This document shows positions 52,985 to 59,240 of a stretch of 64,000 nt of DNA, one piece after another. Location: positions 62,001 through 126,000 of the forward strand of contig JANQEE010000006.1 in assembly GCA_028278525.1 (NCBI GenBank), in the 5' to 3' direction. This stretch comes from Minwuiaceae bacterium. Lineage in GTDB: Bacteria > Pseudomonadota > Alphaproteobacteria > Minwuiales > Minwuiaceae. Every line of letters begins with the position of its first letter. Positions within the stretch are counted from its first letter, which is position 1. Under the pieces are notes generated by a model. That model worked only from the letters and a program-made list of their open reading frames with translations. It did no database searches and was not told the origin of the DNA. The position numbers and the translations under genes were made by a program.

Positions 52985-53773
52985 ATGAGGTCTGCCGTCA
53001 AGTATTGTGCCGCAGCAATAGCGGCTATCGTTTTTGCAGGGGGCGCGCTGGCGAACAAAGCCGCCCATGCCACTGCGTTGTATTTCGGAGCGGCGGAGGC
53101 GACGCTTACGATTACCGACATCCGAAATACAACGGTTAGCGCGGACACTTCCTTTTCGGGGCTGTCCATCTTGGGGGTCACCAAAATATTTGACGCGGAT
53201 ACGCTCGAAGTCGGTAATGCATCCGCAATTTTCGTCGCAAACGAGAGCGTGGTGGATGCTGGCGGCGGCTCCCTCGGCTCCGGCCCAATCCCGGTTTCCG
53301 TGGGCCAGGGGCTGGAACTTTTTTCGGCTTCGACCGGATTTGCAGACCGAGTCGGTACTGCGGCGTCGTTTAGTCTGCTGGACGGTTTGATCGGGCTCTT
53401 CAACGAAAGCGAGACGGACTTCTTCGAAATCGACTTCGCGCTCGAATTCGCTCTGTCCGCCGTTGCGGTAGCGGATGCACTGGCGAACGAAATCGCCGGT
53501 GCGACTGCGTCTTTCTCGATTGACGCGACGCCGTTCGGCGGCGAAGTCGTTTACGATGTACTCGCCGATTCGGAGCTTGGCGCCGATCCCGCGATCGACG
53601 AGTCGCTCTTCTTTACGGTGTCGCTGGACCCGCTCTCCCAAGACAGCGTATTCATAGTCACCTCCACAAACGGCTTCGCCGCCGCTGTTCCAGAGCCGGA
53701 GGCTTTGCCGGTCTTGCTTCTGGGACTGACGATACTTGGCTTGCGCGTTCGCCGCCGGCGGGTCGTGAGTTGA
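52985..53773 (+). CDS. PEP-CTERM-type secreted protein
   Basis: A 262-aa protein with a signal peptide (CAAAIAAIVFAGGALANKAAHA). The mature part is beta-rich, acidic and Ala/Ser/Asp-heavy (surface-type). The C-terminus is AVPEPEALPVLLLGLTILG followed by RVRRRR: the VPEP motif, a transmembrane helix and an Arg cluster, which is the exosortase sorting signal. No exosortase gene is in this window. AAAGGAGGAAG precedes the ATG. Confidence 0.85.
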   Translation: MRSAVKYCAAAIAAIVFAGGALANKAAHATALYFGAAEATLTITDIRNTTVSADTSFSGLSILGVTKIFDADTLEVGNASAIFVANESVVDAGGGSLGSGPIPVSVGQGLELFSASTGFADRVGTAASFSLLDGLIGLFNESETDFFEIDFALEFALSAVAVADALANEIAGATASFSIDATPFGGEVVYDVLADSELGADPAIDESLFFTVSLDPLSQDSVFIVTSTNGFAAAVPEPEALPVLLLGLTILGLRVRRRRVVS

Positions 53774-53829: not shown

Positions 53830-54091
53830 CAAAGTCGGCGGGATAAGCGTCAACTGCCGCCTTCCTCGCCACGGATGAATGTCCACTGACCCCGGAGCAT
53901 CGTCCGATCAAACGGAATCGCTTTTGCGATCCGATTGATCGGATATTGCTTCAGCAGGCTGCCTGCGCTCGACGCGTGGGTTGGGACAAAGCGCGGACGC
54001 CGATATTTCGTTTGAGTTTGCCGCGGGCCGGTGGTGGAATCGTGCGGGCTGTCCGAAGACGGCGACACGCCAGAGCATAATGGAGGGTTGG

Positions 54092-54976
54092 ATGGCGTAC
54101 GTGCGATATATCGATCGAACGACGGAGGACTACCTTCGCCAGGGGTACGAGACCCCATACAAATGGGCGCATCACGAGACGGCGCCGTTTACGAAACTGA
54201 AAAAGCCGCTTGCCGAAAGCAAGGTGGGGCTGATCGGCACCAGCGAGGTCGCCGTTCGGTTCGACACCGAGACGGAAGAAAATCCGATCGTCGAGGAGGA
54301 TTTCCGCGGCATCTATACGATTCCGGCCGATACGCCGACGGAAAAGCTGTACAGCCGCACCGCGTCGTTCGACCGGCACGCGACGCATCTGGATGACCCC
54401 AATGCCTACTATCCGATCGACCGGCTGCGCGAGGCGGTCGCCGACGGGCGCGTCGGCGGGATGCCGGACCGGGTGCTGGGCGCTTACAACAACTACAGTC
54501 AGCGCAAAGTGCTGGAGCAGGAAGCGCCGAAAGCGCTGCAATTCTGCCGCGAGGAGGGGGTCGACGCGCTGATCATGGTCCCCGTTTGACCGGTTTGCCA
54601 TCAGACCGTGAGTCTGATCAGCCGGTATATCGAGGAGCATGGCATTCCGACCGTCGTGATCGGCGCGGCCCGGGACATCGTCGAGCATTGCGGCGTCGCC
54701 AGGTTCCTGTTCGTCGACTTTCCGCTCGGCAGTCCCTGCGGCGAGCCGTGGGACGTCGGCCAGCAGCGCGCCATCTTTCAGCAGGCGCTGGACCTGCTGG
54801 AGACCGCGCCCGGCCCGATGACCACCCGGGAGGCGGGCTATGCCTGGAGCCGGGGCGACGACTGGAAGCGCACGGTGTTCACCGAGGAGCAGCCCTGGCA
54901 GGACGAAGCGACGAAGGCCAAGTGGAACGCGCGGAAAGAGGAGTATCGGCGGCTGAAGGCGGAAGGGAAGGTGTGA
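54092..54976 (+). CDS. Selenoprotein of the glycine/sarcosine/betaine or D-proline reductase (GrdB/PrdB-like) family, with in-frame UGA
   Basis: A 294-aa selenoprotein read through the TGA at 54587-54589 as Sec166. Both halves are in one frame and read continuously as VPVUPVCHQTVSLISRY, so Sec and Cys169 form a U-x2-C redox motif. The first half (MAYVRYIDRTTEDYLRQG...) has ETAPFTKLKKPLAESKVGLIGTSE, and the second has IPTVVIGAARDIVEHCGVARF and FPLGSPCGEPWD, typical of PrdB-type subunits. The ATG at 54092 has GGAGG 6 bases upstream. A hairpin follows the UGA directly. No sel genes are in this window. The reductase partner and substrate are unknown. Confidence 0.85.
54589..54626 (+). promoter_or_regulatory. 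SECIS element for selenocysteine insertion
   Basis: An RNA hairpin starting at the last base of the UGA. The outer 5-bp stem is ACCGG / CCGGT and the inner 7-bp stem ATCAGAC / GTCTGAT, separated by a 6/3 internal loop. The apical loop is CGTGA at 54607-54611, about 18-22 bases after the UGA. This matches the placement of bacterial SECIS elements recognised by SelB. Confidence 0.8.
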
Positions 54977-54986
54977 GGGCCCCGTT

Positions 54987-55057
54987 GTCGTCACCCCGGC
55001 GGAGGCCGGGGTCCAGGTCCGGCGGTTGGTCTGGATTCCGGCCTTCGCCGGAATGAC
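54987..55057. repeat. Dispersed intergenic repeat with inverted ends
   Basis: GTCGTCACCCCGGCGGAGG... at 54987 and CTGGATTCCGGCCTTCGCC...GAATGAC at 55031-55057 make an inverted-end unit of a type often scattered in alphaproteobacterial genomes (GTCATCCCGG...CTGGATTCCGG). It lies directly after the selenoprotein stop. Confidence 0.6.
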
Positions 55058-55073
55058 TAAGAGGGGCCGGGCT

Positions 55074-55158
55074 GTCATTGCGAGCGAAGCGACGCAATCT
55101 CGTCACGCCGTGCTCCGTGTTTTCCAGATCGCCGCGGCCCTTTGGGCCTCGCGATGAC
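55074..55158. repeat. GTCATTGCGAGCGAAGCG-type repeat, copy 1
   Basis: Starts GTCATTGCGAGCGAAGCGA and ends GATGAC, with a GGGCC/GGCCC-like hairpin between. A related copy begins at 59208. The rest of the stretch 55159-55322 is a leader for the transporter operon with GGGGAGG just before the ATG. Confidence 0.55.
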
Positions 55159-55322: not shown

Positions 55323-56345
55323 ATGTTTGAATTCAAGGCCCTGCGGGCCGCCGCGCTGGCGTCGTCGGTCGCGCTGGTTTCCGGCCCGGCGCTGGCCGAC
55401 GTGGACATCAAGTTCACCCTGGACTGGAAGTTCCAGGGGCCGACGGCGGCGTTCCTGGTCGCCGCCGACAAGGGCTATTACGCCGAGGAAGGGCTGGACG
55501 TTGCGATCGACAGCGGCAACGGGTCGGCCGGCGCCGTGACGCGGGTGGCGAGCGGCGCCTACCAGATGGGCTTCGCCGACATCAACGCGCTGGTCGATTT
55601 CAACGTGAAGAACCCCGGCCAGTCGGTAAAGGCGGTGATGATGGCCTACGACGCGCCGCCGTTCTCGCTGTTCACGCTCCGCGCCAACGGCATCGAGAGC
55701 GCGAAGGACATGATCGGCCGCAAGCTGGGGGCGCCGGTCTTCGACGCCTCCTACAAACTGTTCCCCGCGTTTGCGAGCGAAGCCGGCATCGACGAGGCCA
55801 AGGTCGAGCGGGTCAACATGGACCCGGCTTTGCGCGAGACCATGCTGGTCCGCGGCCAGGTCGACTTCATCTCCGGCCACTATTTCTCGTCGATGCTGGA
55901 CCTGAAGTCGAAGGGCGTGGCGGAAGCGGACATCAAATACTTCCTGTACGCCGACTACGGCATGGACTTCTACGGCAATGCGGTGATCGCCTCGGGCGGC
56001 TTCATCGAGAGCAATCCGGAGGCGGTGGCGGGCTTCATCCGCGCCACCATCCGCGGCTGGAAGGACGTGATCGCCGACCCGCAAGGCGCGGTCGAGATCG
56101 TCGCCAAGTCCGACCCGCTGATCGACAAGGCGCTGGAGGTCGAGCGGCTGAACCTGGCGCTGGACGTCAACGTGCTGACGCCGCATGTGAAAGAGAACGG
56201 CATCGGCGATGTCGACGAGGCGCGCCTGCGCAACGCCATCGCGCAGCTTGCCATCGCCTACAAGCTGGCGTCGACGCCGGAACCGGTGGATGTCTGGACC
56301 TCCGAATTCCTGCCACCGGCGGAAGACCGCATGCTGTCTCGCTGA
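55323..56345 (+). CDS. ABC transporter substrate-binding protein (NMT1/THI5-like)
   Basis: A 340-aa periplasmic protein with signal peptide ending ALADVDIK. Seen: FTLDWKFQGPTAAFLVAADKGYYAEEGLDV (SsuA/THI5 start), a two-lobe fold and a C-terminal EPVDVWT. The family binds sulfonates, nitrate, thiamine-precursor pyrimidines or aromatic acids; the ligand here is not clear. It heads a three-gene operon with ATPase and permease 21 and 0 bases apart. Confidence 0.9.
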   Translation: MFEFKALRAAALASSVALVSGPALADVDIKFTLDWKFQGPTAAFLVAADKGYYAEEGLDVAIDSGNGSAGAVTRVASGAYQMGFADINALVDFNVKNPGQSVKAVMMAYDAPPFSLFTLRANGIESAKDMIGRKLGAPVFDASYKLFPAFASEAGIDEAKVERVNMDPALRETMLVRGQVDFISGHYFSSMLDLKSKGVAEADIKYFLYADYGMDFYGNAVIASGGFIESNPEAVAGFIRATIRGWKDVIADPQGAVEIVAKSDPLIDKALEVERLNLALDVNVLTPHVKENGIGDVDEARLRNAIAQLAIAYKLASTPEPVDVWTSEFLPPAEDRMLSR

Positions 56346-56366
56346 CGCGCTAAGACCGCAGCCGGC

Positions 56367-57155
56367 GTGACGCCCTTCGTCGAACTCGACCGGGTCACCA
56401 TGACATATGGCGGCCCGGACGCAGGCACGCCCGCGGTCGCCGATGCGTCGCTGACCATCGGCCGCGGCGAATTCGTTGCCGTGGTCGGGCCATCCGGTTG
56501 CGGCAAGTCTTCGCTGCTGAAGATCGTCTCCGGCCTGATGCCCACCGACTCCGGCACGGCGCGGGTGGACGGCGAAACCGTGTCGGGGCCGCTGACCATG
56601 GTGGGCATGGCGTTCCAGAACGCCACCTTGCTGCCGTGGCGGACCACGCTGGAAAACGTCCTGCTGCCGTTGGAGGTGAGCCGCGCTCACCGCCGGTCGT
56701 TTCGCCGCAAGCGGGCGGAACACGAGGCCGCGGCGCGGTCGCTGCTGAAGACCGTCGGGCTGGACGGCTACGAGGACCATGCGCCGCACGAACTGTCCGG
56801 CGGCATGCAGCAGCGGGCCTCGCTCTGCCGGGCCTTGATTCACAGCCCCGACCTTTTGTTGCTGGACGAGCCGTTCGCGGCGCTGGACGCCTTCACCCGG
56901 GAAGAATTGTGGGGCGTGCTGCAGGATCTCTGGCGGGAGCGCCAGTTCACGGTGATCCTGGTGACCCACGATCTGCGCGAAGCGGTCTATCTGGCGGACC
57001 GGGTCTATGTGGTGAGCAAGCGGCCCGGCCGCATCGTCTACGAGCGCCCGGTGCCGTTGCCCCGGCCGCGCACACTGGAGTCCACGTTCGAGCAGGATTT
57101 CGTCGACCTGGTGCATCGCCTCCGCGATCATATCGGCGAGGTCAGGGCCGCATGA
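56367..57155 (+). CDS. ABC transporter ATP-binding protein
   Basis: A 262-aa ATPase of the nitrate/sulfonate/taurine class, GTG start. Walker A GPSGCGKSSLLK, Q-loop GMAFQNATLLPWRTT, signature LSGGMQQRASLCRAL, Walker B LLLLDEPFAALD, and H-loop VTHDLREAVYLADR. It energises the importer encoded around it. The TGA overlaps the permease ATG. Confidence 0.95.
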   Translation: MTPFVELDRVTMTYGGPDAGTPAVADASLTIGRGEFVAVVGPSGCGKSSLLKIVSGLMPTDSGTARVDGETVSGPLTMVGMAFQNATLLPWRTTLENVLLPLEVSRAHRRSFRRKRAEHEAAARSLLKTVGLDGYEDHAPHELSGGMQQRASLCRALIHSPDLLLLDEPFAALDAFTREELWGVLQDLWRERQFTVILVTHDLREAVYLADRVYVVSKRPGRIVYERPVPLPRPRTLESTFEQDFVDLVHRLRDHIGEVRAA

Positions 57156-57913
57156 CGACGCGTCTCAAGCTCGCTCCGTGGATCGCCACCATCGGCCTGT
57201 TCGTGTTCTGGGAACTGGTCTGCCGGCTGTTTTCCATCCCCGAGTTCGTGTTGCCGGCGCCGAGCCAGGCGATGGCCGCGCTGATCGAATTCTGGCCGGC
57301 GATCTGGCAGAACGCCTTCTACACCTTCTGGGTGACGATGGTCGGCTTCGCCATGGCGGTCGTGTTCGGGCTGGTCCTGGGGCTGGTGACCGGCGCGTCG
57401 GCGCTGGTCTATTCGGCGATCTATCCGTTGCTGGTCGGCTTCAACAGCATCCCGAAAGTGGCGATCGTGCCGGTGCTGGTGGTCTGGTTCGGCATCGGCA
57501 CGATTCCAGCCGTGCTGACCGCCTTCACCATCTCGTTCTTTCCGATCGTCGTGAACGTCGCCACCGGCCTCGCGACCCTGGAGCCGGAGCTTCGCGACGT
57601 GTTGCGCTCGCTCGGCGCGCGCAAGGTCGACATCCTGCTGAAGGTCGGGCTGCCGCGGTCGATGCCCTATTTCTTCGCGTCGCTGAAGGTGGCGATCACG
57701 CTTGCCTTCGTCGGCACGGTGATTTCCGAGACGGTTGCCGGCAACGCCGGCATGGGGCACTTGATGCTGAGCGCGTCGTCGAGTTTCCGCGTGCCGCTGG
57801 TGTTCGCCGGCCTGCTGGTGATCGCGGTCATGGGCGTCGGCATGTACGCGATCTTCGCGCTGGCGGAACGCCGTTTCGTCGGTTGGGCGTTCCGCGGGGC
57901 CGACGCGGCATAG
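57152..57913 (+). CDS. ABC transporter permease
   Basis: A 253-aa membrane protein of the SsuC/TauC type, about six helices. It starts MTTRLKLAPWIATIGLFVFW. The EAA loop is ELRDVLRSLGARKVDILLKVGLPRSMP, before VAITLAFVGTVISETVAG. Translationally coupled to the ATPase (ATGA). It ends 5 bases from the convergent sulfotransferase gene. Confidence 0.94.
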   Translation: MTTRLKLAPWIATIGLFVFWELVCRLFSIPEFVLPAPSQAMAALIEFWPAIWQNAFYTFWVTMVGFAMAVVFGLVLGLVTGASALVYSAIYPLLVGFNSIPKVAIVPVLVVWFGIGTIPAVLTAFTISFFPIVVNVATGLATLEPELRDVLRSLGARKVDILLKVGLPRSMPYFFASLKVAITLAFVGTVISETVAGNAGMGHLMLSASSSFRVPLVFAGLLVIAVMGVGMYAIFALAERRFVGWAFRGADAA

Positions 57914-59207: not shown

Positions 59208-59240
59208 CGTTATTGCGAGCGGAGCGAAGCAATCTTGTGA
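59208..59240. repeat. GTCATTGCGAGCGAAGCG-type repeat, copy 2
   Basis: GTTATTGCGAGCGGAGCGA followed by AGCAATC, near-identical to the unit at 55074. The rest of 59152-59415 carries no gene; the last 20 bases hold the ribosome site of the TAXI gene. Confidence 0.5.

Follow-up and report, generated by a model that had tools for sequence, protein, structure and literature searches.

The window, which is the whole stretch of 64,000 nucleotides analysed here, comes from a Minwuiaceae bacterium (Alphaproteobacteria; contig JANQEE010000006.1) and carries on its forward strand, between positions 54092 and 54976, a predicted gene for a PrdB-like selenoprotein. The gene forms one frame of 294 codons that runs from an ATG at 54092 to a final TGA at 54974-54976, the sole interruption being the TGA of codon 166 (54587-54589). 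An earlier note on this DNA had described two separately called frames that are continuous across a single TGA, with a junction VPVUPVCHQT containing a U-x2-C motif; its coordinates and its reading of the peptide are both correct, and the frames form a single gene for 294 amino acids, in which the predicted selenocysteine (Sec166) lies in the UPVC motif of the segment LIMVPV-U-PVCHQTVSL. Full-length relatives are 33-83% identical to this protein. A putative ribosome-binding site, read from the sequence, is formed by GGAGG at 54082-54086 (forward strand), 5 nt upstream of the ATG, and relatives have AGGAGG at about the same position. A mechanical list of open reading frames began the upstream half at TTG 53981; this start was rejected in favour of ATG 54092, which is the one conserved among relatives.

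The 3' intergenic stretch (54984-55100) is occupied by dispersed palindromic repeats of the CGGCGGAGGCCGGGGTCCAG and CATTGCGAGCGAAGCGACGCAATC types, at 54997-55050 and 55076-55099, and is the site at which relatives of the same clade have a glutaredoxin-like gene. A degenerate further copy of the CATTGCGAGCGAAGCGACGCAATC-type repeat is present at 59211-59234. Downstream of the repeats, an ABC transporter is encoded on the forward strand (55323-57913) by genes for an NMT1-type binding protein (55323-56345), an ATPase (56367-57155) and a permease (57128-57913). We considered the transporter as a functional context for the selenoprotein and rejected it, because 346 nt, with the repeats, separate it from the gene and because it is not conserved beside the gene in relatives; it is probably a separate unit. 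No neighbour resembles the prd operon. The gene at 52985-53773 encodes a secreted protein without a Pfam match, whose C-terminus has a sorting-like tail (VPEPEALPVLLLGL...RRR) that looks PEP-CTERM/VPLPA-like.

Relatives of the gene were sought in 385 sampled genomes of the class Alphaproteobacteria and the family was found in 51 of them, most of these relatives having exactly one internal TGA. Two more, from named metagenome-assembled genomes, are 81-82% identical to the window protein and contain the same TGA. In all complete genes checked the TGA is confined to one column of the alignment, in which other members have TGC or TGT; the in-frame UGA is thereby aligned with the cysteine of homologues, as expected of a bacterial selenoprotein, and the search for cysteine homologues across Sec166 that the earlier note had proposed gives a positive answer. 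Both halves of the gene are under purifying selection, as the dN/dS values on the two sides of the UGA lie between 0.07 and 0.28. The family tree divides into clades and contains 7 changes between selenocysteine and cysteine, at least 4 of which are forced by well-supported branches; the clade of the window gene has ten members, all with selenocysteine. One cysteine form (L046) carries an unrelated TAG.

Downstream of the UGA and within the coding sequence, a perfect stem of 7 bp (54600-54606 paired with 54612-54618, forward strand) closes a CGUGA loop located 17 nt past the UGA, in agreement with the two-part hairpin and perfect inner stem of the first description. Folding of a 41-nt piece starting at the UGA gave a minimum free energy of -17.5 kcal/mol (z = -3.6), and 1 of 200 shuffled sequences folded as well. 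The published model of the bacterial SECIS (PMC13188914) calls for a loop of 3-9 nt, an upper stem of 4-16 bp, a G among the first two loop positions, a spacing of 16-37 nt between UGA and loop, and a free energy of at most -7.5 kcal/mol; the hairpin of the window, with its 5-nt loop, 7 bp, G at the second position, 17 nt and -17.5 kcal/mol, agrees with this model in every respect. Conservation of a hairpin situated inside a coding region proves little by itself, and it is the contrast with the cysteine forms that is conclusive. In 35 distinct selenocysteine sequences, 93.5% of the stem is paired and 30 cells show changes on both sides; 0 of 500 shuffles were paired as highly. In 10 cysteine sequences, whose encoded peptide is almost identical, pairing falls to 55.7% and equals that of their shuffles. 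The folding z-scores also differ (-2.04 in the selenocysteine forms against 0.03 in the cysteine forms), with p = 5e-5, a value computed on related sequences and to be taken as a guide only. The selenocysteine forms thus keep the hairpin by compensatory changes and the cysteine forms tested have lost it. Pairs of this kind let the constraint imposed by the SECIS be seen in a clean natural experiment, as almost the same peptide occurs in genes that have the hairpin and in genes that lack it. At gathering thresholds Rfam reported one tRNA only in the window, which is no evidence against the SECIS.

The selenocysteine machinery, for which a search had been suggested, is complete in the host genome: selA, selB, selC for the tRNA-Sec (anticodon UCA) and selD lie within 10 kb on another contig (C34), whose composition fits that of the window (r = 0.867, compared with 0.80-0.84 for the window's own pieces). 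Of the 51 alphaproteobacterial genomes in which the family occurs, 38 have a selenocysteine form and selA was found in 35 of them; it was found in 0 of the 13 that lack such a form (Fisher p = 1e-9). The three remaining genomes (G264, G314 and G011) have a TGA-containing PrdB-like gene and no selA was found in them; they may be incomplete assemblies, hold decaying genes or use another route to selenocysteine. The host has two further PrdB-like genes with selenocysteine, one on C34 directly after selD and before a 2-hydroxyacid dehydrogenase (L056:13181-14251), the other on contig C3 between genes for an LLM oxidoreductase and a VOC protein (L055:9170-10033).

Taken together, these data indicate that the frame at 54092-54976 is almost certainly a genuine selenoprotein gene, in which UGA166 is translated as selenocysteine. 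The opposite reading takes the UGA for a normal stop or for a fault of the assembly, and the two halves for pseudogene fragments. It has nothing in its favour beyond the standard-code stop and is refuted by the same TGA in many independent genomes, the purifying selection past the TGA, the covarying hairpin and the sel genes. A sequencing error, which the earlier note had named as something that would refute its reading, is ruled out because many independent assemblies share the TGA, and the signal at codon 166 goes beyond chance because the TGA/cysteine column, the covariation and the dN/dS values all rest on other genomes. The nature of the product demands a finer distinction. The resemblance to PrdB and GrdB-type reductase subunits noticed at the outset is real: the protein matches the PrdB model of NCBIfam (TIGR04483) with E = 3e-29 and the GrdB-type families, next best, with E values of 1e-7 to 1e-9, and the same models are matched by 38 of 38 aligned relatives, TIGR04483 with E below the cut-off of 0.001. 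The 38 sequences have 17 invariant columns, including Sec166 and H170, which places the protein in the broad PrdB-like/selenoprotein B family. Homology to PrdB extends over 208 residues (32-239), and in an alignment with Terrisporobacter PrdB the selenocysteine columns coincide, so that Sec or Cys stands at the catalytic position. On these grounds the protein could be a true PrdB that reduces D-proline or a similar amino acid together with an undetected pyruvoyl subunit of the PrdA/GrdE type. This is very unlikely, as the match to TIGR04483 scores 102 bits where the equivalog cut-off is 300, the identity to clostridial PrdB is 26-30%, UPVCHQ replaces the (U/C)GTCHR of PrdB, about 50 extra residues are present at the C-terminus and the neighbours are not those of a prd operon. 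Furthermore, neither PrdA (TIGR04480) nor GrdE (PF09338) was found in the 98%-complete host genome, by searches that detected such genes in three plasmids known to carry them, and for this reason we describe the protein as PrdB-like without its partner. The selenoprotein B subunits GrdB, GrdF and GrdH are homologous to the window protein in the C-terminal part, the Sec region included, but the window protein is about 140 residues shorter, has no GrdE partner and reaches 17.3 bits against the gathering cut-off of 22 of Pfam PF07355. The window protein is therefore PrdB-like and PrdA-less, and is not a subunit of D-proline reductase.

A further reading regards the protein mainly as a general thiol-redox or peroxide-handling protein, comparable to the thioredoxin-like selenoproteins with UxxC and devoid of a specific metabolic substrate. 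The UxxC motif itself is compatible with such a role, as is the glutaredoxin-like gene (about 76-86 codons, CxPC, mostly CAPC) that is found directly downstream in 6 of the 10 members of the clade; the window copy has no such gene adjoining, its 3' flank consisting of the repeats followed by the ABC transporter. However, the protein has no match to thioredoxin-type families in Pfam and NCBIfam, and in one subgroup (L089:4074-4886, L090:12567-13379 and L091:15001-15813) the motif is UPLDHQ, with the selenocysteine kept and the resolving cysteine replaced by Asp. The resolving cysteine is thus not universal and only the Sec/Cys position itself never changes, which fits a catalytic nucleophile and not merely one half of a disulfide pair. 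Substrate chemistry is also suggested by the genes that adjoin relatives, namely those of the LLM oxidoreductase and the VOC protein beside a paralogue, and those of family III CoA-transferases in the sister clade. The latter lie directly downstream, at -4 to +173 nt, in nine loci (L059, L058, L063, L064, L089, L090, L091, L092 and L093; four confirmed by Pfam), with selenocysteine and cysteine forms alike. We consequently judge a general thiol-redox function rather unlikely. The PDB contributed no relative of the window protein in sequence and profile searches; a structure predicted from a three-row alignment had a mean pLDDT of 58.7 and retrieved nothing below E = 0.017 in a fold search, and with so poor a model and an empty search no claim on the fold is made.

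Proteins of this type have precedents. UxxC selenoproteins called 'PrdB' ranked third by abundance in the Sargasso Sea data, with 42 genes (PMC1088965, 2005), and the family comprised 235 selenocysteine and 110 cysteine members in the GOS data (PMC2398784, 2008). As far as the available text of these two catalogues goes, the marine proteins share with ours the UxxC motif, the kinship to PrdB and PF07355 and the mixture of selenocysteine and cysteine members; that text gives no operon context or partner for them, and we liken them by motif and kinship. Plasmid-borne cysteine relatives in the alphaproteobacteria Haematobacter and Roseomonas are labelled 'glycine/sarcosine/betaine reductase selenoprotein B family protein' in RefSeq. 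The window gene belongs to an alphaproteobacterial family of stand-alone PrdB relatives already known from marine metagenomes; catalogues have listed PrdB-type UxxC selenoproteins from 2005 onwards, so that the gene adds one member to a known group. A PrdB form in an alphaproteobacterium, which had been thought noteworthy, is accordingly less surprising given the marine catalogues and its occurrence in 51 of 385 genomes of the class. PrdB-type UxxC proteins thus rank with the most abundant selenoproteins in marine metagenomes, but their name still derives from a clostridial enzyme, the partner subunit of which was not found in the host.

At the level of sequence, the data show that the decoding of UGA166 as selenocysteine is directed by the in-frame bacterial SECIS together with the SelA, SelB, tRNA-Sec and SelD of the host. 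We propose that the product is most likely a PrdA-independent, PrdB-like selenol enzyme. Sec166, at the predicted N-terminus of a helix, would act as the nucleophile by attacking the substrate or by taking up reducing equivalents, and in the clade of the window Cys169 may resolve the resulting selenenyl-sulfide. A small dithiol protein would then re-reduce the enzyme; the CAPC glutaredoxin-like protein encoded beside most clade members is a candidate electron donor for this clade. The CoA-transferase of the sister clade points to CoA-linked catabolism rather than to Stickland fermentation of amino acids. We consider this account as a whole, with its redox scheme and the CoA-linked pointer, to be probable, with moderate confidence. 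More tentatively, the alphaproteobacterial PrdB-like proteins might constitute a separate class of PrdA-independent selenoenzymes, receiving electrons from a dedicated glutaredoxin-like protein in one clade and coupled to CoA-transferases in another, and catalysing a reductive step of a non-Stickland, CoA-linked catabolism; this generalisation is possible rather than probable.

The linkages to the glutaredoxin-like and CoA-transferase genes provide testable handles on function and are the part worth following; a full-text search of the open-licence literature with a few terms found no paper on either. In the host itself, a close glutaredoxin-like gene (L068:9510-9749) is found on contig C24 beside a prdB-like remnant of 77 codons without the Sec region, the two together spanning L068:9253-9749. 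The composition of C24 correlates with that of the window at r = 0.675, which makes its binning less certain. The arrangement of the remnant and the intact glutaredoxin-like gene looks like an internal deletion that has left the partner behind.
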